DNA from: Rubellicoccus peritrichatus
Lineage (GTDB): Bacteria; Verrucomicrobiota; Verrucomicrobiia; Opitutales; Cerasicoccaceae
Length of the DNA stretch: 64,000 nt
Assembly: GCF_033100135.1 (NCBI RefSeq)
Contig: NZ_CP136920.1
Coordinates: 3,839,001 to 3,903,000, forward strand
Direction: 5' to 3'
A program made the translations under genes and the position numbers. Every line of letters starts with the position of its first letter. Within the stretch, counting starts at the first letter, position 1. Below the pieces are notes generated by a model. It was not told the origin of the DNA and did not search any database. It saw only the letters and a program-made list of their open reading frames with translations. Shown here one piece after another: positions 35,519-51,012 of the stretch.

Positions 35519-37192
35519 TCAAGCGCAACGGCGTCGGAGAATTACCATCGATAAGACAACTAAGCTGGTAAGGAGTGCATATGTCGTCGGCTCAGGAATA
35601 GGGGCGCCGAATTCATAAGCGCCAATGTCCTGCTGGCTCACTGGACGTAAATAGCCTCGCTGGTCTGTGCCCAAGCTTGTTGACCCAGTATCAATCGCAT
35701 CGCTTAATGCTCCCAATGCATGGGTAAAGGTCGGCCCACCATTGTCGGCAAGAGGTTGGAGGTCGGCGTCTGCGTTGAATAGGTCACCTACACTCGCAAT
35801 TATGCCGCCGCCATCATCATCAAAGAGATTGTGTCCACCAGAATCGACGGATTCACCGCCACCGATGGTGTTGGTCGCTCCGTTCGCGATATTGCCACTG
35901 AAGATTGAATTCTGAACTTCGAAGGTAGAATCAAACTCAGTGGAGAACCGAAGACCACCGCCATTCGCAGATCCGCTATCATTATCGGCAATGGTGCTGC
36001 TGTCGATCTCTCCGGATGCGCCCGCGGAAACGATTAAGCCGCCACCACCGAGTGAACTCGTGTTTCCGCTGATGGTGCTGTTTTCGACAATGACTGTGTT
36101 CCTTGTAGCATCTTCATCACCGCTAGCGGCACTGATGCCTCCGCCTCCACCATTGAGTGCGTCATTATTGCTGATCGTCGATTGGATGACAGTCAAATCA
36201 GCTTCGGCCACATTGATGCCGCCACCGCCATCAGCGGTATTTCCGTCGATGGTTGTGCGCTCGATGGTGACGCTGGTGCCGCCAGTCTGAGCGTGGATTC
36301 CGCCTCCTCTGCTGCCCGATGCAGCTGTGTTGTCATTAATCTCACTATCTGTGATAGTCACCTGAGCTCCTGAGGCAATTTGAAGGCCGCCTCCATCTTC
36401 ACCAGAGCCCTGGCTTTCGTTGTTGTTGATTGACGAATCGTCGATGTCCAGGGTTCCGCCCTGAATAAAGATCCCACCATTCGAACGCTCCCCTGTATTG
36501 TTGGAGATATCAGAATTCTGGATGGTTATGTTAGGGGCACCAAATGCCGAGATGCCACCAGCCAGTCCTGCAGCGCCAAAGAGTCGGAGCGAAGCCGTGT
36601 TGTTAGTGATTTGAGAGTTGGTAAGCAACAGAGAGCCCGTCGACATTGCAATGGCGCCTCCTTGAAGGCCGTCATTGTTTGTAAATACACTTGTATTAAT
36701 CGTCGCCGAACCATTGCTGCCAATGCGTATTGCACCACCAGTTCGATCAGTAACATTGTCGGTAAAGGTGCTACCGGACACGGAGAAGGTACCGCCATTC
36801 ACGTTGATTGCCCCGCCACTACTGGCACCGGACGCAAAATTCTGAAGCGTGAAACTTGAAAGGCTGAGATTTCCTCCTGGATCAATGGTAAAGGCGCGAT
36901 TCGCAGCGCTGGTTCCATCCAGAATGACATTGAAGCCATTGCTGCTGATAGAAAATTCGGTGGTGACTGTTGGAAAGATGCTTCCAACATCCAAAGTGCC
37001 ACCGACCTGGAAATTTATCTGATCAGCCTCGGGGGTCGCCTCAGCCTGGTTAATAGCGTCGCGCAGTGATCCTGCGCCGCTGTCTAAAAGATTAATAACA
37101 TTGTATACGGCAGCATTGCCAGCTAAAGGCAAACCAGTTGCCCATACACAAGTCGTCAGGAGGGCCAGAGCAGCCCGATGAGAGTAATTCAT
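35519..37192 (-). CDS. Beta-helix surface protein with PEP-CTERM tail
   Basis: A 557-residue exported protein. After a signal peptide (LALLTTCVWATGLPLAGNAA) it has the opening VINLLDSGAGSLRDAINQA typical of polymorphic-outer-membrane-like or right-handed beta-helix surface proteins. Many short repeats follow in the style SSGGAINVNGGTFSVSGSTF and NNDALNGGGGGISAASG, each likely one coil of the helix. Near the end, STSLGTDQRGYLRP and DIGAYEFG form the choice-of-anchor Q-type domain. The tail IPEPTTYALLTSLVVLSMVI then LRRRCA is a PEP-CTERM signal. It is probably displayed at the cell surface. The repeats are degenerate, so assembly error or copy-number variation is possible. Confidence 0.85.
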   Translation of the reverse strand: MNYSHRAALALLTTCVWATGLPLAGNAAVYNVINLLDSGAGSLRDAINQAEATPEADQINFQVGGTLDVGSIFPTVTTEFSISSNGFNVILDGTSAANRAFTIDPGGNLSLSSFTLQNFASGASSGGAINVNGGTFSVSGSTFTDNVTDRTGGAIRIGSNGSATINTSVFTNNDGLQGGAIAMSTGSLLLTNSQITNNTASLRLFGAAGLAGGISAFGAPNITIQNSDISNNTGERSNGGIFIQGGTLDIDDSSINNNESQGSGEDGGGLQIASGAQVTITDSEINDNTAASGSRGGGIHAQTGGTSVTIERTTIDGNTADGGGGINVAEADLTVIQSTISNNDALNGGGGGISAASGDEDATRNTVIVENSTISGNTSSLGGGGLIVSAGASGEIDSSTIADNDSGSANGGGLRFSTEFDSTFEVQNSIFSGNIANGATNTIGGGESVDSGGHNLFDDDGGGIIASVGDLFNADADLQPLADNGGPTFTHALGALSDAIDTGSTSLGTDQRGYLRPVSQQDIGAYEFGAPIPEPTTYALLTSLVVLSMVILRRRCA

Positions 37193-41649: not shown

Positions 41650-42849
41650 TCAGCTTTTGAGAGGTGGGTTCTTCATGAAGACCTCAAATACGGTGGCAAA
41701 GCAGCCAGCAAGGTTGTCATCATCAGAATCACTGATTTTGAATTCCAGAGTTTCTTTCATGTGAGGCAGAGTTTCGTCCATTAGAGTGGATCGAATGCTT
41801 GTATCTGCATATTTCATCAAGCTGCGTAATCTGCCGCCCACAACAACAAGAGATGGATTGAAAGTCTGGACTAATCCGGCCAAGCCTTTGCCCACTTGTT
41901 CACCAACAGCGTTCAATACACTCGCAACCTTAGCATCACCAGATTCTGCCAGTTCGGTGACATAGCCGATCCAATCCTCCTGCACATGCTGCTGGTCAGG
42001 CAACCGAACTCCTGCAGCCTTGAGTTTTTCAATAATTGCCAGCGAGCCTATTTCCGTCACCCAGCATCCGCGTTTGCCACAACTGCACTGCTTTCCATTA
42101 TCGGTAAATGCGATATGCCCGATCTGTCCTGCAAAGCCCTGGTCCCCACGAAGAAGTGATCCGCCAACGAAAACACCGGCTGCCAAACCAACCCCCAGAC
42201 TAAGATAAACAAGATTATCGGCACCTCTTGTGGACTCGTGATGCCTGACACCAATTGCGCTGGCATGTGCCTCATTCTCAACAAAGACCGGTGCACTGAA
42301 GCGCTCTTCCCAATTCTCCCTCAGGGAGATGTCTTCCCAGCCAGAGATCGGGCCATAGGCCAGCTTTCCCGCTTCGTGGTCGACCAGCCCTGACCAGGCA
42401 ACACTGATCCCAAAACAAGCGAGTCCAGCCTTATGCCCCACGGACAATCCTTCATCGATTAGCGTCTCTGCTCTCTGTAAACACTCGGTTGGGGTTGCCT
42501 CAGGATCGAGTGAGGCATCTTTTCGCCATATGATTTCCTGTCCCAGGTTAGCCAAGGCAACGGTCACACTATCCAAATCAATTCGAACTGCAATAATACA
42601 GGCGCACTCCGCATTTAAACTCAATAAAAGTCCTGGGCGTCCGGCACTTCCTGCCACAAAATCGGTCTCACATATCAATGATGTTTCAAGCAGCTCGGAA
42701 ACGATATTTGAAACAGCGGCACGAGTTAGCCCCAAATGTTGTGCTATCTGTGCTCTGGATAAAGGGCCCTGATTGCGCAGTTGGTCCAGTACACTCATTG
42801 CGTTAAGGCGCCGAATATCCCTCCTGTCATACCTGTTTTTTGTAGTCAT
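41650..42849 (-). CDS. ROK-family transcriptional regulator
   Basis: A 399-residue protein. Residues of about 5-65 are a winged-helix domain (SVLDQLRNQGPLSRAQIAQH, then LGLTRAAVSNIVSELLE). The rest is a ROK sugar-binding domain with VFVENEAHASAIG, the GVGLAAGVFVGGSLLRGDQG block and the zinc-binding segment GQIGHI...CSCGKRGCW (His plus three Cys). Such proteins repress sugar genes and release DNA on binding a sugar or sugar phosphate. It is divergent from the four-gene oxidoreductase-DUF1080 cluster, which it most likely controls. An imperfect operator-like site lies at 42884-42904. Confidence 0.92.
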   Translation of the reverse strand: MTTKNRYDRRDIRRLNAMSVLDQLRNQGPLSRAQIAQHLGLTRAAVSNIVSELLETSLICETDFVAGSAGRPGLLLSLNAECACIIAVRIDLDSVTVALANLGQEIIWRKDASLDPEATPTECLQRAETLIDEGLSVGHKAGLACFGISVAWSGLVDHEAGKLAYGPISGWEDISLRENWEERFSAPVFVENEAHASAIGVRHHESTRGADNLVYLSLGVGLAAGVFVGGSLLRGDQGFAGQIGHIAFTDNGKQCSCGKRGCWVTEIGSLAIIEKLKAAGVRLPDQQHVQEDWIGYVTELAESGDAKVASVLNAVGEQVGKGLAGLVQTFNPSLVVVGGRLRSLMKYADTSIRSTLMDETLPHMKETLEFKISDSDDDNLAGCFATVFEVFMKNPPLKS

Positions 42850-42883
42850 CTCTATATCTTCTTGACTCGTGTAACTAAAACAC

Positions 42884-42904
42884 TTTGTTTATTAACTCAA
42901 CAAA
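42884..42904. promoter_or_regulatory. Candidate ROK operator
   Basis: TTTGTT (42884-42889) and AACAAA (42899-42904) are inverted around a nine-base AT-rich spacer, in the 92-base gap between the ROK gene and the first oxidoreductase gene. AT-rich inverted repeats of this kind are usual for ROK regulators. No binding evidence exists. Confidence 0.35.
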
Positions 42905-42941
42905 TTAATTTCACGCTCTGTTTTAACATTTGAATCATCCT

Positions 42942-44390
42942 ATGAATAAAGTCTCATTCCCTAGTAAAACCCCAGATCAAAGTTCTCAATTATCGCGACG
43001 ACGTTTTCTTAAAACATCAACGGCGCTTGGGGCGTTCAGTTTTCTACCATCGTCCTATGTGTTTGGTCAGAACTCAAGTGGTGGTGATCCGGCCCCGAGT
43101 GGTCGTGTTAATCTTGCGATGGTTGGAATAGGGCATCAGGGCAATGGAGTCAGGAAGTCGCTTCTCAATTCGGGCCTTTGCAATGTCGTAGCGCTTTGTG
43201 ATGTTGACTTACAAGCTGAGCATGCACAGGAGGCCATTGCCAGCCATCCCAACGCAAAGCAATTCACGGATTTTCGCGTCATGTTTGATACGATGGCTGA
43301 CGAGATCGATGCAGTTGCGATCGCCATACCGGATCACGCTCACTTCAGCGTCACCATGCTAGCGATGTCATTGGGCAAACATGTTTTTGTAGAGAAACCA
43401 TTGGCGCATACATTTGGGCAGTGCGAACGCCTGATAGACCTTGCTGAAAGATCCGGTGTTGTCACTCAAATGGGCAATCAGGGCCATTCCGGGGCAAACT
43501 ACTTTCAATTCAAAGCCTGGTTTGAAGCTGGTGTCATCAAGGATGTTACCAGAATTACAGCACACATGAATAACTGGCGACGCTGGCACGGCTGGGGAAC
43601 AGAGTGCACAGGATTTCCAAGCGAACCAATGCCCGAAGGTATCAACTGGGACGCTTGGATAAACGATGGTGCTATCAATCCATACAGCAAACGTTTGCAT
43701 CCGCAGAATTGGCGAAGCTGGTTTGACTACGGCAGTGGGGCTTTTGGAGATTGGGGGCCACATATTCTCGATACAGCTCATCGCTTCCTCAAACTTGGAC
43801 TTCCCAACAGGGTTACCGCAGTAAAATTGGATGGCCCTAATCCGTATGTTTTCCCCCAAGCCTCTACGATTCGCTTTGATTTTCCTGAACGCGAAGGAAT
43901 GCCTGCCTGTGAAGTCACTTGGTATGATGGCCAAAAAAATAAACCGGGAATCGAAACGGAGTACGGTGAACTCGTAACGAACCCGGAAACAGGTGCGACT
44001 GCCCGTGAATCAGTCAATGTCGATAAACCCGGAAAAGTGATTTACTCTGAGGATTTGGTTTTTCAAGGCGGTTCGCATCACTCGCCATTGCGCATCATTC
44101 CAAAGGAGAAATTCATGGATATGCGCAAGTCCTTGCCCAAGTTTCCACAGAAGAATTCAAACCATTACAAGAACTTCCTCCTTGCCTGCAAAGGTGAAGA
44201 AGAAAGCCGTTCGCCTTTCAGCGTGAGTGGGCCGCTTACCCAGGTATTCAACATCGGAATATTGTCTCAACGTTTCGGAGGCGTGCTTGAGTTTGATCGT
44301 GAAAGCAAGAAAATCACGAATAACAAAACAGCCAATGCCTTTCTTGACCCGGCCCCACGAAGAGGCTGGGAAGAATTCTACAAATTGTAA
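42942..44390 (+). CDS. Tat-exported Gfo/Idh/MocA-family oxidoreductase
   Basis: A 482-residue protein. A twin-arginine signal SRRRFLKTSTALGAFSFLPS is at about residues 19-38. The NAD(P)-binding part has VNLAMVGIGHQGNGVRKSLL, followed by CDVDLQAEHA, AIAIPDHAHFSVTMLAMSLG and the Gfo/Idh hallmark KHVFVEKPLAHT. The C-terminal part has the FDYGSGAFGDWGPHILDTAH block with the catalytic-type His. ATG at 42942 is chosen over a TTG at 42930. Exported members of this family oxidise or modify glycosides, usually with a tightly bound cofactor. It heads the ROK-divergent cluster and is followed 23 bases later by the DUF1080 gene. A 3-dehydrogenase acting on glycosides is the likely role, by inference. Confidence 0.88.
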   Translation: MNKVSFPSKTPDQSSQLSRRRFLKTSTALGAFSFLPSSYVFGQNSSGGDPAPSGRVNLAMVGIGHQGNGVRKSLLNSGLCNVVALCDVDLQAEHAQEAIASHPNAKQFTDFRVMFDTMADEIDAVAIAIPDHAHFSVTMLAMSLGKHVFVEKPLAHTFGQCERLIDLAERSGVVTQMGNQGHSGANYFQFKAWFEAGVIKDVTRITAHMNNWRRWHGWGTECTGFPSEPMPEGINWDAWINDGAINPYSKRLHPQNWRSWFDYGSGAFGDWGPHILDTAHRFLKLGLPNRVTAVKLDGPNPYVFPQASTIRFDFPEREGMPACEVTWYDGQKNKPGIETEYGELVTNPETGATARESVNVDKPGKVIYSEDLVFQGGSHHSPLRIIPKEKFMDMRKSLPKFPQKNSNHYKNFLLACKGEEESRSPFSVSGPLTQVFNIGILSQRFGGVLEFDRESKKITNNKTANAFLDPAPRRGWEEFYKL

Positions 44391-44413
44391 AATCTGAGAT
44401 CTGTTACCTGATC

Positions 44414-45742
44414 ATGATACAGTTATTTCGAATCGTTACACCGATCATTCTTCTGGGGATTACCCACGCCTATTCCGCACCTGATGCCAATGCCACCAAG
44501 TCATGGCCGAAAGGCATTAACCCTGCGAAGTTATTGACGAACACAGATGCGGAACCAGACGTGAATCAACCAGGATTCATTGAGCTGTTCAATGGAAAGG
44601 ATCTAAACGGATGGAGTATTCAAGGCGGCCAGATGACGTATGAAGTCATCGACGGTGCCATCGTCGGAACGGCTATTCCCGGGGTGAAACCAAACAGCTT
44701 TTTATGCACGGATGATACTTACGACGATTTCATTTTCACAGCCGAGTTTAAATGGGACATCCCAAGCAACTCTGGTATCATGTTTCGTGCAGACACAAAA
44801 CAACCGGACAAAAATGGAGTACGTCGCGTTTTTGGCTACCAAAGTGAGATGGATCAAAGCGATCGTCGCTGGACTGGTGGGATTTATGGAGAGGGCATGG
44901 GTGGTTGGAAGTATCCACTTTCCAAACCACAAGCACATGCTGCAGCGAGGGCCGCAATCAAAGATCATAGCGCATGGAACCGTATGACAATTTACGCAAA
45001 CGGTGACGTGATTAAGACATGGATCAACGGTGTGCCGTGTTCATACCTGATTAATGATGAACGCAGCGAAGGTTTCTTCGGGTTACAGCTTCATACCGGC
45101 CCGAAAGGTATAGTTGCTTGGCGTAATATCAAGGTGAAGGAGCTGAATGGATCACCAGAAGAACCGGAAGGCTGGACAGATCTTTTTGCTGATGATGATT
45201 TCTCCGAATGGGAACAAGCTAATGGAAAAGATGTTGGTAGCGGGTGGACAATAAAGAATGGTGTTGTTCATCGACATAGTATGCTAGCGGGCAGCATCAG
45301 AACACGGCAAAGTTACGAAGACTTTGAGTTGATTTTTGAATGGAAAATATCTGAATCCGGGAATAGCGGAATCAAGTACCGCACGCATAAAAATCTTGGT
45401 CCGGAGTATCAAGTGCTGGATGACATAAATTACCCGCAAAGCAAACCAACACATCTTGCCGCTTCCCTTTATGATTTGGTTGCCGCAGATGATGCAAAAC
45501 CAATCAAGCCTGTTGGCGAATGGAATACTGGACGTATTGTTGCGGATGGTAATCAGCTAGAGCATTGGCTCAATGGCGAAATGGTTGCCAGTGTAACACT
45601 GGGCAATGACGACTGGCAGCGACGATTCAAGCAAAGCAAATACAAAAACTTCAAAAACTTTGCCACAGGTAAAGGGCCAATTCTTTTGCAGGACCACAAT
45701 GATGAAGTGTGGTTTCGTAACATGAAGGTTCGTGAGCTTTAA
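44414..45742 (+). CDS. Secreted tandem DUF1080 (3-keto-disaccharide hydrolase-like) protein
   Basis: A 442-residue exported protein with signal peptide FRIVTPIILLGITHAYSA. It carries two DUF1080 domains. The first (about 50-255) has GFIELFNGKDLNGWSIQGG, DFIFTAEFKWDIPSNSGIMF and IVAWRNIKVKEL. The second (about 258-442) has GWTDLFADDDFSEWEQANG, DFELIFEWKISESGNSGIKY and EVWFRNMKVREL. The fold is a concanavalin-like jelly roll. Characterised relatives hydrolyse 3-keto-glycosides made by Gfo/Idh-type 3-dehydrogenases, matching the gene just upstream. It is followed by a carrier gene 18 bases later. Substrate specificity and whether both domains are active are unknown. Confidence 0.88.
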   Translation: MIQLFRIVTPIILLGITHAYSAPDANATKSWPKGINPAKLLTNTDAEPDVNQPGFIELFNGKDLNGWSIQGGQMTYEVIDGAIVGTAIPGVKPNSFLCTDDTYDDFIFTAEFKWDIPSNSGIMFRADTKQPDKNGVRRVFGYQSEMDQSDRRWTGGIYGEGMGGWKYPLSKPQAHAAARAAIKDHSAWNRMTIYANGDVIKTWINGVPCSYLINDERSEGFFGLQLHTGPKGIVAWRNIKVKELNGSPEEPEGWTDLFADDDFSEWEQANGKDVGSGWTIKNGVVHRHSMLAGSIRTRQSYEDFELIFEWKISESGNSGIKYRTHKNLGPEYQVLDDINYPQSKPTHLAASLYDLVAADDAKPIKPVGEWNTGRIVADGNQLEHWLNGEMVASVTLGNDDWQRRFKQSKYKNFKNFATGKGPILLQDHNDEVWFRNMKVREL

Positions 45743-45760
45743 TGCTTAGTATTGCTGCCC

Positions 45761-47407
45761 ATGAGTGATTATACACCGTCAGTAGATGTTTCTCCCAAAG
45801 AGTCTGAAAAGCTTCAACAGATCCACAGTAAGGGCTTTGTTGGAAAGTTAAGCAGCTATGCACGTTTAACCGGTCCTGGCTGGCTTCAAGCAGCGGTAAC
45901 TCTTGGTGGCGGGTCACTGGCCAGCGCCTTGTATCTAGGGGTGATCTCCGGTTATTCACTGATGTGGCTTCAGCCATTAGCGATGCTCTGTGGGGTCATC
46001 ATGTTGATGGCACTTGCGCATGTGACACTGGGCAATAAAAAATATCCATTTACTTCAGTTAAGGAAACCATCTCACCAGTGCTGGCATGGTCCTGGCTCG
46101 GAGCTACAGTAGTTGCGGATGTCGTCTTTTGTGCTGCTCAAGCCTCACTTGGAGTAGCAGCCGTGCAGCAGAATCTGGGCATCAACATTAATGCGTATAT
46201 CATTACAATTATCCTGTCTGCGATAGGTCTCGCCTCAGCTGCATTGTATGCACTCGGCAGCAACGCGGTAAAGCAACTGGAGTTCATTTTAAAAATTCTA
46301 GTCGGTATTGTTATTGTTTGTTTTGCGGCAGCTGCTGTTACGCTCTTATTCAGTGGCAAAGTAAATCTCGGGGCGATTTTCGCCGGCCTAATTCCTAACC
46401 CGATGGCACTCTTCAAGCCAGCTACATCTCTGGATGCGATGATTGCTGCGACGGGTCCATCGGCTGATTATTGGAATAACTACGTAACGGATCTTCAGCG
46501 CAGTCGTATTATTGCTGCTTTTGGTACGGCCGTAGGAATCAATATGACTTTTCTACTGCCTTACACTCTTGTTAAGCGAGGGTGGGGCAAGGTGCATCGT
46601 GAACTTTCTCGTTTCGATCTGGTCATTGCTTTGTTTCTTCCTTTCTCGCTGGCTACCGGTTTGCTTGTCATTTGCGCTGCATCGTCTTTCCACGGACAAA
46701 CCACCGATGTGTTAGATTCGAATGGACGACCAGTTCCATCGCTTGAAGCCGGTTATTATAAAATCCTGAATCAGCGCCTCGTGGCTGAAGGCGACTTGCC
46801 GGTCGATCCGGCTGCCACCCGTGAAATGGCAAACCAGCTCCCACTGGCTGAGCGGGAACTCGCCGCCGCTTTGACGAACCGTGATGCCAAACAACTCTCC
46901 AACACGCTTGCTCCAATCATGGGGCAGGGCATGGCCGATCTGGTTTTCGGAGTTGGGATTCTTGCGATGGCTTTATCGACAATGATGGTTCACATGCTGA
47001 TGAATGGTTTTGCAATTTCTCAAAGCGTCGGAAAGCCTGGCAAGTTCAAGCCCTTCGTGATTGGTGCTTCAATGCCTGCACTGCTTGCCATTTTTGCTCC
47101 GTTCGTCTGGAGCGGTGATGCTAAGGCAGCATTGCAAATCCCAGCCGCAGTCATTGCAACCACGCTATTGCCGATTGCTTACCTTGCAATTCTACTGCTG
47201 ATGAACAGCCGCAAGACACTGCAAGACGGCGAGCGCGCATCGCCTATCGTAAATATTTTGATGGTGATTTCAGCCGGTATCGCGACCTTCGCCTCTTTCT
47301 GGCTGTTATCTCACAAAGGTACAGCCGGAATGATCGGGATCGCAGGACTCATTCTACTGGCATTGACGGGGGTCTTTGGCTTCTGGCGCCACAAGCGCAA
47401 AGCGTGA
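45761..47407 (+). CDS. Nramp-fold membrane carrier lacking canonical metal-binding motifs
   Basis: A 548-residue inner-membrane protein with about 11-12 hydrophobic segments and the Nramp (SLC11-like) fold pattern. The start of helix 1 reads LTGPGWLQAAVTLGGGSLAS. Classical Nramp proteins have DPGN here for metal coordination; the Asp and Asn are replaced (GGGS). In helix 6 the classical M/A-P-H motif is also absent (GINMTFLLPYTLV). An extra loop with charged residues lies around 46700-46920. It should therefore not be assumed to carry Mn or Fe. Its place inside a putative keto-sugar cluster suggests an organic substrate. ATG at 45761 is used; a TTG nine bases upstream is possible. Confidence 0.82.
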   Translation: MSDYTPSVDVSPKESEKLQQIHSKGFVGKLSSYARLTGPGWLQAAVTLGGGSLASALYLGVISGYSLMWLQPLAMLCGVIMLMALAHVTLGNKKYPFTSVKETISPVLAWSWLGATVVADVVFCAAQASLGVAAVQQNLGININAYIITIILSAIGLASAALYALGSNAVKQLEFILKILVGIVIVCFAAAAVTLLFSGKVNLGAIFAGLIPNPMALFKPATSLDAMIAATGPSADYWNNYVTDLQRSRIIAAFGTAVGINMTFLLPYTLVKRGWGKVHRELSRFDLVIALFLPFSLATGLLVICAASSFHGQTTDVLDSNGRPVPSLEAGYYKILNQRLVAEGDLPVDPAATREMANQLPLAERELAAALTNRDAKQLSNTLAPIMGQGMADLVFGVGILAMALSTMMVHMLMNGFAISQSVGKPGKFKPFVIGASMPALLAIFAPFVWSGDAKAALQIPAAVIATTLLPIAYLAILLLMNSRKTLQDGERASPIVNILMVISAGIATFASFWLLSHKGTAGMIGIAGLILLALTGVFGFWRHKRKA

Positions 47408-47439
47408 TTTTAGTTTTTTATTAATTTTTCTCAAGGAAT

Positions 47440-48507
47440 ATGAAATTTGGAATAATCGGAACAGGAATGGTGGCTGACTTTCATGCCAAAGCCATCCAAG
47501 CCATGGATGGCGGCGAACTCTTCGGAGTTGCCAGCAGTAGTTATGAACGGGCTCAACCATTTGTAGATAAACATAAATGCAAAGCCTACGCATCCGCGGA
47601 AGAACTGCTTGCACAATCTGAACTTGATATCGTCACCATAGCAACACCTTCTGGAGCACACTATGATCCAGCCATGGCTGCCATCGCAGCAGGCAAGCAT
47701 GTCATTGTTGAAAAACCGCTTGAAATCACTACGCAGCGAATTGACGAAATGAAGTCTGCCGCAGCTCAAGCTGGTGTCACGCTTGCGGCAATTTTGAACC
47801 GACGCTTTCACCCGGCAATGGATGCCTTCAAGAAAGCAATCGATAATGGACGTTTTGGTCGTCTAACTTCAGCCTCAGCTTATATCAAATGGTATCGAAA
47901 TCAGGCCTATTATGATTCTGCCGCATGGCGTGGCACATGGGCACTTGATGGAGGCGGTGTGTTGATCAATCAGTCGATTCACACTATCGACATTTTGCTT
48001 CACCTTGCAGGCCCAGTCAAATCAGTGCAGGCAAGCACTGCCTGCCTTGCACATGAGAACATTGAAGTGGAGGACATTGGGGCTGCTCTTCTGGAATTCG
48101 AAAATGGCGCTCTTGGTGTCATTGAAGGCAGCACCTGTTCTTGGTCTAAGGATGGCCATCCAGCTCGTGTCCAGATCGCAGGGACAGAGGGGTCAGTCTT
48201 TTTAGCAGACGATGCTTTTGAAATATGGGACTTCATGAAAGAAGAACCTGATGACGCGTTCGTTCATGCAAATCTAATGAAAGGTTCCGCTGCTGGCCTC
48301 GGTGCCAATGACCCCAATGCGATGGGCTTCCAGCAGCACCAACACAATTTTGAAGAAGTCGTTCAGGCCATTCGGGAAGGTCGCGAACCAAGCACTTCAG
48401 TCAATGATGCCCGCCGTAGTGTCGAACTGATTCGGGCTATTTACGAGTCCGCTCAAAACAATGGTGACAAGATCCTGCTTGGCCGCCAAATGCAGGGAAT
48501 GCATTAA
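47440..48507 (+). CDS. Cytosolic Gfo/Idh/MocA-family oxidoreductase
   Basis: A 355-residue NAD(P)-dependent sugar oxidoreductase without a signal peptide. It starts MKFGIIGTGMVADFHAKAIQ (dinucleotide-binding loop), has IVTIATPSGAHYDPAMAAIA and KHVIVEKPLEIT with the conserved E-K-P, and the catalytic-type block GGGVLINQSIHTIDILLHLAG. The ATG at 47440 follows AAGGA at a good distance. It is the last gene of the ROK-divergent cluster, 32 bases after the carrier gene. The likely role is reduction of an imported keto-sugar, or oxidation of the free sugar, in the cytoplasm. The family acts on many cyclic sugars and polyols, so the substrate stays open. Confidence 0.9.
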   Translation: MKFGIIGTGMVADFHAKAIQAMDGGELFGVASSSYERAQPFVDKHKCKAYASAEELLAQSELDIVTIATPSGAHYDPAMAAIAAGKHVIVEKPLEITTQRIDEMKSAAAQAGVTLAAILNRRFHPAMDAFKKAIDNGRFGRLTSASAYIKWYRNQAYYDSAAWRGTWALDGGGVLINQSIHTIDILLHLAGPVKSVQASTACLAHENIEVEDIGAALLEFENGALGVIEGSTCSWSKDGHPARVQIAGTEGSVFLADDAFEIWDFMKEEPDDAFVHANLMKGSAAGLGANDPNAMGFQQHQHNFEEVVQAIREGREPSTSVNDARRSVELIRAIYESAQNNGDKILLGRQMQGMH

Positions 48508-48511
48508 AACC

Positions 48512-48526
48512 CTGAGAACTCCTCAG
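48512..48526. terminator. Small hairpin between convergent genes
   Basis: CTGAG (48512-48516) and CTCAG (48522-48526) pair around five bases, between the oxidoreductase stop and the carA stop, reaching into the carA end. On the minus strand it is followed by GGTTTT, so it may weakly terminate carA transcription. Confidence 0.3.
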
Positions 48527-49680
48527 CTCTTCGCCTTTTCCACCATATTGTAGAATTGCTCAAAAAGCGGATCGGCGTCGTTGGGACCTGGTGCAGCCTC
48601 AGGATGATACTGGACACTGAACACAGGCCATTCCTTGTGGCGGAGGCCTTCGACGGTATCGTCGTTTAAGTTCAATTCAGTAACCACAGCACCACAGTTT
48701 TCAATCTCTTCGCGGGTTGAAGCAAATCCGTGGTTTTGAGCCGTAATAGCCACATTACCAGTTTCTATATTCTTCACCGGCTGATTTCCACCACGATGAC
48801 CGAATTTGAGCTTAAAAGTCTTTGCACCAAGTGCGTGCGTGATGATTTGATGGCCAAGGCAGATGCCGAAAGTCGGATATTTGGGCAGGAGCTGCGATAC
48901 GGTTTCATGGGCATATGTCACCGCTGAAGGATCGCCAGGACCATTGCTTAGGAAAACGGCATCAGGCTTCAGTGCATCCACATCTTCAATTTTAGAGGAT
49001 GCTGGCAAGACATGAACATCGAATCCGTGATGAACCAGCTTGCGAAGGATCGAGCGCTTAACTCCGAAGTCAAAAGCGGCTACCTTGAAGCGCTTTTGAC
49101 GGTCTTTATTTTTGTAAAGTTGAGTGCCTTCGACAAGGAAAGGGCCAGTGACCTCAGGGGGAGCCTCATATTGATAAGTTTCCTTCGTTGTAACGTCCTT
49201 GACGTAGTCTACGCCGACAAGTCCACCCCATTCTTTGGCCAATTTCACGGCCTCAGCATCGCTAATATCGACAGTGCTCAGGCAGGCCTTCATGGCCCCG
49301 GCAACCCGCAGGCGCTTGGTCAAGGCACGAGTATCAAGGCCTTCCAGTCCGGGGACTCCGAAACGCTCCAGATAATCCGGTAAGGACTCATTGCTACGCC
49401 AGTTACTAGTGACTGGGCTCAGGTCACGAACGATAAAGCCGGAAACCTTTGGCCCGTCAGATTCTTCATCGCCTGGATTGATTCCATAGTTACCAATTTG
49501 CGGCGCAGTCATCGTAACGATCTGAGCAAAATAGGAAGGGTCTGTCAGAATCTCCTGATAACCCGTCATCGACGTATTGAAACAGGCCTCTCCAACGACT
49601 GTTTTCTGCGCTCCAAAAGCTTTCCCACGAAAGACGCTCCCGTCTTCCAGTGCTAGCACCCCATATGATTGTCCGGACAT
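48523..49680 (-). CDS. carA: Carbamoyl-phosphate synthase small subunit
   Basis: A 385-residue glutaminase subunit that supplies ammonia for carbamoyl phosphate, used for pyrimidines and arginine. The N-terminal domain starts [19 protein letters not shown] and has [17 protein letters not shown] and [19 protein letters not shown]. The C-terminal class I amidotransferase domain has the nucleophile Cys in [15 protein letters not shown], followed by [11 protein letters not shown] and the catalytic His in [12 protein letters not shown]. Length fits the family. carB is not adjacent. It ends convergently with the sugar oxidoreductase gene. Confidence 0.97.
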
Positions 49681-49767: not shown

Positions 49768-51012
49768 TCACTCTTGAGTTACCGTAAGCCTCAGGAATAC
49801 AGGGTTCTCTGGTCCGCTGTAAGTTGCTGTCCAGATTTCCATCCCATCCTGGATTCCAGTATTCACAAGCGTAATCTCATCGCTTGACCAACTGGCGGAC
49901 TCAAGAGTGGATGACCACTCAGGTGTAAATTGAATGCCTGTTGCCGAGGTACTTTTACGAAAGCGAATAGCATGGTCTGAATCATTGTTAAATAGCTCAG
50001 GGCTGTCTTCCACACTAGGGGCACCAGGATCGCTGTTGAAAGCAAATTCAAGGAGATTCGTCAGTCCATCGAAATCTGGGTCTGCGTCAATTGAAGCATC
50101 GGCGTTGTAGATTCCATGATCAGTGATCCAACCCGTAAAAGTGCTCGTATCTGGCACTGCAGCCAGAATCGCACTGACATAACTTGAGATGCGGACAAAT
50201 AGATTCTGGTCACCACGATTGAAAAATCCCCCTCCAAAGGTGGAAGTATCAGCGCCTTCCTGTTGAGTCACGAGTGTGGCCAAACCGGCTAGATACCATT
50301 GACCGTTTATTTCAATGAATAAGCCTGATCCGGAGTCGTAGGTTGCAAGAGCAGCCTCATCATTTCCTCCAGAGTTGTCGAGATAGGTGGTTAAAGCCGT
50401 ATAGGTTCCACCATTTGTAATGGATTCCGTCCCTTCGACTTCGTTGAGGCCCCAGCGTTTGGCAATTGTGTCATTGCTTGTATCCCAATCCCAGGTGATT
50501 TTCTGGCCGGATATACTCGGATCGGGAGTACTTTCGTTATGGGCACGCCCCCAGCCAATCAAAGTTGCATCTGCGCTGCTATCAAGTGAAGCATTAGTAT
50601 TTAATGTGACTCCATTGATCCCTGGATCATCAATAAGCTTAATCAACTTCAAATCCAGTTCACCTATGCGTATGGGCGTAAATCCAGCATCACGCTCCCA
50701 GTAGGTATTGCTATCAAAGGTTACATGGGTGCGCGTATTCCCTCCATCAACATGATTCGCCGTAATGAGATATTTGCCACCAAGGTAGACGGCACTTCCG
50801 GCCGGGGAGCTTCCGCCATCATTGCAAATCAAAGCAATGGCATGAAAAGGCACTCCCGTTCCAGGATCTGTTAGATTCGCATCATTGTCCCCGGACCCAA
50901 GCAACATCGCGTGCGCATCACAGGCAATGAATGATATCATTACCGTATAAACCGTACACAAGCTTCTGATTTGGGGAATCACTCGACTCTTGGATATATG
51001 TAACCCTACCAA
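49768..51012 (-). CDS. Secreted trypsin-like serine protease
   Basis: A protein of up to 414 residues. The N-terminal hydrophobic stretch SLCTVYTVMISFIACDAHA is a signal peptide; the start is uncertain (TTG 51012, GTG 50985 or ATG 50940, the last giving a very short signal). The S1 protease domain is seen from GSAVYLGGKYLITANHVDGG (catalytic His), IGELDLKLIKL (Asp) and ATYDSGSGLFI (catalytic Ser in D-S-G-S-G, close to the usual GDSGGP). Near 300 comes DADPDFDGLTNLLEFAFNSD, a calcium-binding type segment often seen before C-terminal domains of Verrucomicrobia surface proteins. The last ~90 residues are a beta-sandwich-like tail. It probably acts outside the cell. Confidence 0.82.
   Translation of the reverse strand: MVGLHISKSRVIPQIRSLCTVYTVMISFIACDAHAMLLGSGDNDANLTDPGTGVPFHAIALICNDGGSSPAGSAVYLGGKYLITANHVDGGNTRTHVTFDSNTYWERDAGFTPIRIGELDLKLIKLIDDPGINGVTLNTNASLDSSADATLIGWGRAHNESTPDPSISGQKITWDWDTSNDTIAKRWGLNEVEGTESITNGGTYTALTTYLDNSGGNDEAALATYDSGSGLFIEINGQWYLAGLATLVTQQEGADTSTFGGGFFNRGDQNLFVRISSYVSAILAAVPDTSTFTGWITDHGIYNADASIDADPDFDGLTNLLEFAFNSDPGAPSVEDSPELFNNDSDHAIRFRKSTSATGIQFTPEWSSTLESASWSSDEITLVNTGIQDGMEIWTATYSGPENPVFLRLTVTQE

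Follow-up and report, generated by a model that had tools for sequence, protein, structure and literature searches.

A putative periplasmic 3-keto-glycoside operon with an Nramp-fold carrier that lacks the metal site

Within a 64,000-nucleotide stretch of the Rubellicoccus peritrichatus genome (hereafter the window, to which all coordinates refer), a four-gene operon divergent from a ROK-family regulator is interpreted here as a novel form of the periplasmic route already known for 3-keto-glycosides, the surprise being a carrier with the Nramp fold. With some reserve, we favor the view that the operon encodes such a pathway and that its carrier handles a sugar or uronate, possibly in the 3-keto form; the substrate and the direction of each step are what we infer from the genes and their relatives.

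The run consists, on the plus strand, of an exported Gfo/Idh/MocA oxidoreductase and putative glycoside 3-dehydrogenase (GfoTat, 42930–44390), a secreted double-domain DUF1080 (3-keto-disaccharide hydrolase) protein (44414–45742), the carrier (NRAMPL, 45752–47407) and a cytosolic Gfo/Idh/MocA oxidoreductase (GfoC, 47440–48507), with gaps of 23, 9 and 32 bp in the ORF list; the ROK gene lies divergently on the minus strand (41650–42849), and the next gene after GfoC, carA (48523–49680), is on the strand opposite to the run. ORFs and Pfam bear out these genes in the order given by the first-pass annotation, whose span (42850–48507) holds the four-gene run but begins after the ROK gene. That annotation would have been undermined had the genes not been conserved together; the run recurs in other Opitutia, including two genomes (G103 and G179) from another family of the same taxonomic order, and carrier and GfoC are paired across phyla. 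The series GfoTat, DUF1080 protein and carrier behind a divergent ROK gene is also found in loci L045–L049 and L069, with one extra gene ahead of the carrier in L046–L048 and a second GfoTat–DUF1080 pair in L069, and L043 has ROK, DUF1080 protein and carrier without GfoTat; because of this recurrence, the arrangement is taken to be more than chance. A promoter and terminator scan of the locus gave signal near the shuffled level and carries no weight here. The suggestion that a nearby GH5 hydrolase (37815) feeds the cluster found no support and was dropped, because a Na+/H+ exchanger gene lies in between.

Both an HTH (MarR_2, 30.2 bits) and a ROK domain (PF00480, 142.5 bits) are recognized by Pfam in the regulator, homologues of which score at least 200 bits in L043–L049 and L069. 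The gap between the ROK gene and GfoTat contains a putative operator, a 17-bp imperfect palindrome (42886–42902) with a leave-one-out matrix score of 15.7 (null mean −0.6, maximum 15.5; p about 0.003), which is overlapped by an inverted repeat found in a separate repeat search. Similar palindromic sites are present in 8/8 gaps tested, seven at p about 0.003 and that of L044 at 0.017; the ROK protein would repress the operon until sugar is present.

The carrier had been described as Nramp-like, which holds for its fold and family (PF01566, 79.8 bits, over the cut-off) but not for the Nramp metal site. Fold comparison was needed because sequence searches against solved structures were nearly empty, the carrier profile giving one chance match (E 0.85) and the single sequence one weak Nramp match (E 0.0077). 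The predicted structure (pLDDT 93.1) superimposes on Deinococcus radiodurans Nramp (6d91) with Z 40.3 and rmsd 2.6 over 392 aligned residues at 19% identity, identity to the listed solved Nramps being 19% or less; the first 18 rows of the comparison contain nothing but Nramps and their Mg2+ relative EleNRMT, so that the model, as predicted, has the Nramp (LeuT-type) fold. In place of the metal ligands, TM1 carries TLGGGS (45899–45916, plus strand) where Nramps have DPGN, and TM6 carries AVGINMT (46529–46549, plus strand) where they have MPH, so that GGGS replaces DPGN and GIN aligns with MPH; both Nramp motifs are retained in 11/11 canonical rows of the same alignment, and the TM3 acid of Nramps aligns to Gln in the carrier. 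Across 66 aligned carrier rows T50, L51, G52, G54, V261, N264 and M265 are invariant, and the position of the Nramp Asp is Gly in 66/66. A start at 45761 is also possible for this gene.

The YcsG-FabL model 9a52 (Z 31.5) also stands among the Nramps in the fold comparison; YcsG, which we take to be a Bacillus subtilis relative encoded with 5-oxoproline genes, would in that case set an organic-substrate precedent. A quick-mode tree of 88 rows sets the carriers apart from four canonical Nramps and groups the window protein with L043 and L044; because the program warned of long-branch joins, the tree is relied on solely for how close relatives divide. By PF01566 membership, less than 30% identity to Slc11 and absence of the metal-site residues, the carrier is likened, by these criteria and not by branch, to the Slc11/Nramp outgroup (orphan group and NRMT), which shares PF01566 and replaced metal-site residues in passages of PMC4072509, PMC9606685 and PMC10606218; these passages name no orphan-group substrate and have an NRMT carrying Mg2+, whereas the window carrier is tied to sugar-oxidizing genes.

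The two secreted proteins resemble known players in 3-keto-glycoside chemistry. GfoTat, for which an alternative start at 42942 is possible, matches PF01408 (74.8 bits) and has 8tdf and 8tdh as its best solved relatives; its TAT_signal match (20.0 bits) is under the 22.7 cut-off, the motif SRRRFLK being recognized by eye. Against NF058561 (BT_2158_fam) it scores 286 bits where the cut-off is 750, indicating homology below equivalog level. The DUF1080 protein has an N-terminal signal peptide, read by eye, matches PF06439 in two stretches (279.6 bits) and has 4jqt as its best solved relative; two genomic places both score over the cut-off.

One of the closest comparisons is with Bacteroides thetaiotaomicron BT2157–BT2160, which, in part according to PMC11300592, PMC9007349 and NCBIfam names, shares a periplasmic Gfo/Idh glycoside 3-dehydrogenase, a DUF1080 protein and a second Gfo/Idh protein. 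Features of the window's own are the divergent ROK gene, the double-domain DUF1080 protein and the Nramp-fold carrier within the operon; moreover, GfoC is nearest to uronate 3-dehydrogenases and GfoTat falls below the BT_2158 cut-off. A precedent is the lactose cluster of Caulobacter crescentus, which likewise combines periplasmic 3-oxidation and DUF1080 cleavage with nearby transporter, epimerase and reductase genes that matter for growth (PMC9007349), but its dehydrogenase is LacABC and not a Gfo/Idh protein; the word Nramp is absent from the main text of that article. Oxidation and cleavage in the periplasm followed by reduction in the cytosol, as proposed, agree with the signals and with known systems (PMC9007349, PMC11300592); the pathway first suggested is partly supported.

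Across genomes, the widespread core is the carrier with GfoC and not Gfo with DUF1080. Among 80 carrier loci, taken from at least 540 as those most similar to the window protein and hence biased toward the seeds (5 of the 11 search seeds, window included, already had GfoC beside them), GfoTat (6/80) and DUF1080 (13/80) are found in a minority, and tblastn places GfoC next to the carrier in 53/80, or in 51/73 with at least 400 bp downstream, the other 22/73 having no adjacent GfoC. By ORFs, in counts that overlook genes lying under longer antisense ORFs and that leave out L110 and L119 (which gave no carrier ORF and are inside the tblastn counts), a co-directional GfoC directly follows the carrier in 49/75 loci and other genes of the same loci in 5/996; GfoC is detected in 52/78, in all 52 within the carrier's own directon. 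The pair spans Verrucomicrobiota, Bacteroidota and Lentisphaerota, cultured relatives with it including Rubritalea marina and Croceivirga thetidis (L052 and L075), L044 also holding a GfoC (509 bits, tblastn), and GfoC labels are clustered on the carrier tree (14 changes against a shuffled mean of 24.4).

In a control of 28 loci from related genomes, which amount to 23 distinct canonical Nramp genes, these genes had no Gfo, DUF1080, ROK, TIM, UxaC or SDR match (tblastn, 1e-5) within flanks of 1.5 kb or, for five of the genes, of about 5 kb. Six control loci contained a carrier-type protein (at least 100 bits): L151 and L164, which represent the same gene (G245), have Gfo matches (GfoC 150 bits; in L164, GfoTat up to 331 and ROK 249), and L152, L154, L158 and L165 have none by tblastn. 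The link weakens with distance: in another set of carrier loci GfoC is adjacent in only 8/30, one being the window, and three Planctomycetota carrier loci (L093, L107, L122) have no adjacent GfoC.

GfoC has GFO_IDH_MocA with C3/C domains and no signal, and would be a 3-keto-sugar or 3-keto-uronate reductase. Its best solved relatives are 3q2k (176.6 bits) and 3q2i (168.9), aligned over nearly the full length, followed by a partial alignment to the glucuronide-3-dehydrogenase 8tdi (95.1). The structures 3q2k and 3q2i are presumably WlbA, an enzyme whose substrate is a sugar of the glucuronic acid type. A reference title in PMC10622841 matches this identity; from such WlbA-type and glucuronide 3-dehydrogenases GfoC differs in belonging to a probably catabolic operon, where it would run as a reductase. 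In the window's clade, 10/36 loci have UxaC close to the carrier, and in L191, L192 and L195 UxuA is no more than about 1 kb away from it; such neighbors point to sugar acids as the substrate class. The Rubellicoccus genome has UxaC in a uronate cluster 1.3 Mb from the operon, among whose ORFs, as read, no inner-membrane sugar carrier was found.

In the favored pathway, GfoTat would oxidize C3 of the glycoside's sugar in the periplasm, the DUF1080 protein would cleave the 3-keto-glycoside and the carrier would take up the 3-keto sugar thus freed or its glycal, with a uronate as the likeliest case; in the cytosol, GfoC would then reduce C3 back with NAD(P)H, and the uronate would enter the UxaC pathway, whose genes lie at another place in the genome. 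Loss of the metal site, together with the carrier's place in a sugar-oxidizing operon, suggests that part of the NRAMP family carries sugars or sugar acids rather than metals. We give even chances to the broader proposal that a large PF01566 clade, with a GGGS/GIN pocket replacing the metal site, comprises carriers for sugar acids or 3-keto sugars and provides the importer still lacking from the periplasmic pathways for 3-keto-glycosides and uronates in Verrucomicrobiota and Bacteroidota. The carrier's relatives in PF01566, a family named for metal transport, number at least 540 and are probably annotated as metal transporters, names that would mislead if they carry sugars or sugar acids; the uptake step of these pathways would gain a candidate gene, some of the Nramp outgroup would acquire a testable function, and the Nramp fold would serve an organic substrate, like other LeuT-fold carriers. 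In a literature search that covered few subscription journals, no title or abstract opening among those listed connects the transport of sugars or keto-sugars with an Nramp-type protein.

The same architecture might instead serve a neutral sugar, such as the glucosides or disaccharides of BT2157–2160, the uronate neighbors elsewhere reflecting another use of the carrier family. This is rather unlikely: GfoTat and the DUF1080 protein do resemble BT_2158 and 8tda-type proteins, the ORF list has no uronate gene inside the window's operon and GfoC also resembles the inositol dehydrogenase IolG (140.9 bits), but other genomes repeatedly have UxaC or UxuA close to the carrier, and GfoC is nearest to the presumed WlbA structures, then 8tdi. 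Also in line with a neutral sugar, BT2158 is required for trehalose, leucrose and palatinose (PMC11300592).

Recurrent TIM-barrel genes bear on a further alternative, in which inositol is what the carrier brings in, GfoC acts as an inositol 2-dehydrogenase and the TIM barrels of its relatives are inosose isomerases or dehydratases. IolG is indeed the top NCBIfam match of GfoC, IolE/IolI are among the proteins that the TIM barrel model resembles, and a second TIM barrel matches IolO (108.6 bits). The alternative is nonetheless improbable, all Iol matches, including those to IolG and IolO, being far below equivalog cut-offs and no IolB, IolC or IolD being recognized by eye among recurrent neighbor clusters; moreover, DUF1080 is not known to take part in the breakdown of inositol. 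A TIM-barrel gene is usual in the window's clade (27/36 loci), and a genome search of Rubellicoccus gave a short weak match only; because this gene is missing and the uronate genes are 1.3 Mb distant, the pathway is doubtfully self-contained, as it had been called. The TIM barrel occurs in 83/286 genomes of the class, and its standing as an obligatory partner of the carrier is weakened by 20 TIM-barrel loci, of which only L237 and L239 hold an Nramp-fold carrier and 18 have none nearby.

That the carrier still transports a metal, supplied to the pathway enzymes, would agree with its fold and Pfam family but is very improbable, given Gly at the Asp position in 66/66 aligned rows, the loss of the Met-Pro-His motif and the fact that an MFS carrier can take its place. 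Seven TIM-barrel loci have a strong GfoC (at least 400 bits): two hold the Nramp-fold carrier, L243 and L246 hold neither carrier type, and in three an MFS gene is directly divergent from GfoC, so that an MFS carrier can stand beside GfoC where the Nramp-fold carrier is missing. These MFS carriers are nearest to aromatic-acid, sialate and metabolite:H+ symporters, with scores below the cut-offs.

The gene content and order that the first-pass annotation described for the five-gene cluster, a ROK regulator divergent from genes for a Tat-type exported Gfo/Idh oxidoreductase (GfoTat), a secreted DUF1080 protein, a carrier and a cytosolic Gfo/Idh oxidoreductase (GfoC), proved sound upon ORF reading and Pfam analysis. 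Gaps of 23, 9 and 32 bp between the four co-directional genes would fit a single transcript. The best reading of the operon is, in general terms, a periplasmic 3-keto-glycoside pathway, and we lean towards a uronate as its substrate; the main new point is the carrier, which combines an Nramp fold without metal ligands with ties to sugar-oxidising genes across phyla.

Pfam assigns the carrier to PF01566. In a motif alignment of carriers with 11 canonical Nramps from related genomes, it has GGGS in TM1 where the latter have DPGN, GIN in TM6 aligned to the canonical MPH, and a Gln in TM3 at the canonical acidic position. A set of 66 aligned rows shows no variation at G52, G54, N264 or M265 and hardly any at G53; in the motif alignment, distant members carry GAGS at the same TM1 place. 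The top 18 structural matches of its AlphaFold model (pLDDT 93.1, pTM 0.91) are all Nramps or EleNRMT, the best being 6d91 (Z 40.3, rmsd 2.6, 392 aligned, 19% identity); 9a52 (YcsG model) scores Z 31.5, and LeuT-fold carriers other than Nramps start at Z 27.5. A helical insertion (~residues 315-390) lies between TM7 and TM8 by our own helix count. A PF01566 outgroup without metal residues has been considered to possibly connect metal carriers with those of non-metal substrates (PMC4072509), and it is elsewhere handled as an outgroup or orphan type (PMC9606685, PMC10606218); the relevant passages of these three papers give no substrate for it. Other PF01566 proteins, distant from both carriers and canonical Nramps, replace DPGN with GTGS or GPGS (L147, L148, L149), and the L147 type has a C-terminal part matching beta-propeller proteins.

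Scanning the species-genome collection with 11 carriers yielded at least 540 relatives, the best 80 of which were retained. Within these best 80 of at least 540 loci, GfoC is co-directional with and directly downstream of 49/75 carriers vs 5/996 other genes; by tblastn it is directly downstream in 53/80 (51/73 with at least 400 bp of downstream DNA), and in 29 of the 36 loci that form the window's clade in the family tree. Counted anywhere in the locus by tblastn, with thresholds of at least 200 bits for ROK and GfoTat, GfoC occurs in 56 of these best 80 and 31 of the 36 clade loci, TIM barrel c2 in 30 and 27, DUF1080 in 13 and 12, UxaC in 10 and 10, a second TIM barrel in 10 and 0, ROK in 8 and 8, and GfoTat in 6 and 6. 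A looser locus set, sharing some genomes with the 80 and including the window as one locus, has a Gfo directly downstream in 8/30. At 28 loci covering 23 distinct canonical Nramp genes, tblastn gave no match to any of eight partner proteins. The distant GAGS-type carrier of L164 (genome G245) has ROK, GfoTat-like (331 bits) and GfoC-like (150 bits) matches within 11 kb, suggesting that the association may extend beyond the window's clade.

In six Saprospiraceae loci (L060, L062, L067, L068, L070, L076) the carrier is preceded by a DUF7133/cytochrome c protein (c9) that might serve as a redox partner in the periplasm. The window genome itself holds a second carrier copy (39% identity; L029, G000:C1:5686000-5704000) whose neighbours are genes for a cupin, ThuA, a Gfo/Idh, a DUF6807 protein and a regulator that joins LacI-type and AraC domains; together they look like another sugar-oxidation set.

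Among 20 loci chosen by TIM barrel c2, seven have a strong GfoC (at least 400 bits) and five a weaker Gfo (114-149 bits). Two of the seven contain the Nramp-fold carrier (L237, L239), in three an MFS carrier gene diverges directly from GfoC (L241, L244, L245), and both carriers are absent from L243 and L246. The MFS proteins match Sugar_tr and, under cut-offs, aromatic-acid, sialate and metabolite:H+ symporters; their presence in the carrier's slot supports an organic substrate for that slot. The TIM barrel of relatives, modelled from L049 (pLDDT 92.3), is a xylose-isomerase-like barrel matching Art22 isomerase (Z 27.6) and UlaE (25.8). Its substrates may be keto or enol intermediates. The window genome gave no TIM-barrel match at 1e-15 and a single short one (28% over 65 residues); an unrelated enzyme, or none, would take this step there.

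GfoTat carries a twin-arginine motif by eye, with a Pfam TAT match slightly under cut-off. In NCBIfam it scores highest against the BT_2158 glycoside 3-dehydrogenase (286 bits vs a cut-off of 750), and its nearest solved structures are 8tdf and 8tdh; published work places BT2158 in the periplasm as a glycoside 3-dehydrogenase required for disaccharides (PMC11300592). The DUF1080 protein has two PF06439 domains (Pfam) and, by eye, a signal peptide. A Caulobacter DUF1080 protein, proposed as a periplasmic 3'-ketolactose hydrolase, matters for lactose use, as nearby transporter, reductase and two epimerase genes do for growth (PMC9007349); among the published plans consulted, this cluster is the nearest to the window operon.

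GfoC has no signal and is related to IolG (140.9 bits). Among solved structures it comes nearest to 3q2k (176.6 bits) and 3q2i (168.9), which we take to be WlbA, a UDP-GlcNAcA 3-dehydrogenase, followed by the glucuronide 3-dehydrogenase 8tdi (95.1); they hint at, short of proof, C3 chemistry on uronates. Within the best 80 of at least 540 loci, tblastn places UxaC, a uronate catabolism enzyme, at most 10 kb away in L044-L048, L051, L053, L054, L056 and L075. As further sugar-acid evidence, L191, L192 and L195 have UxuA close to the carrier. With family names taken from representatives, the gene order in L053 and L054 is hydroxyacid dehydrogenase, gluconokinase-type kinase, Ldh_2, UxaC, mannonate-oxidoreductase-like SDR, carrier, GfoC and TIM barrel, a sulfatase (by eye) separating carrier from GfoC in L053. 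The window genome's UxaC (651 bits) lies in a uronate catabolism cluster (L205, G000:C1:5214000-5233000) beside a PfkB kinase and, by eye, LacI-like, hydroxyacid dehydrogenase-like, Ldh_2-like and SDR genes; no inner-membrane sugar carrier was recognised among the ORFs listed there.

A palindrome like TGTTTATTAATTAAACA is found in the ROK gap of all eight loci tested (window, L043-L049), with a leave-one-out p of ~0.003 in seven and 0.017 in L044; near copies L045 and L048 were held out together, and L069, where predicted genes overlap, was left out.

The window (G000:C1:3839001-3903000) belongs to a 5.8-Mb single-contig genome with DUF1080 at 12 places above cut-off, in 10 open frames, so that the conserved arrangement is remarkable and DUF1080 alone is not. 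The closest carrier relatives in the family tree are from Puniceicoccaceae (Verrucomicrobiota). Since the carrier is present in 31 of the 104 genomes searched as relatives (window genome counted) and absent from all 9 other same-family genomes among them, the operon seems to be an accessory trait of patchy occurrence. Two other secreted proteins of the window, both with zero Pfam matches, show by eye a repetitive beta-helix-like sequence ending in a PEP-CTERM-like tail (35519-37192) and a likeness to trypsin-like protease (49768-51012).
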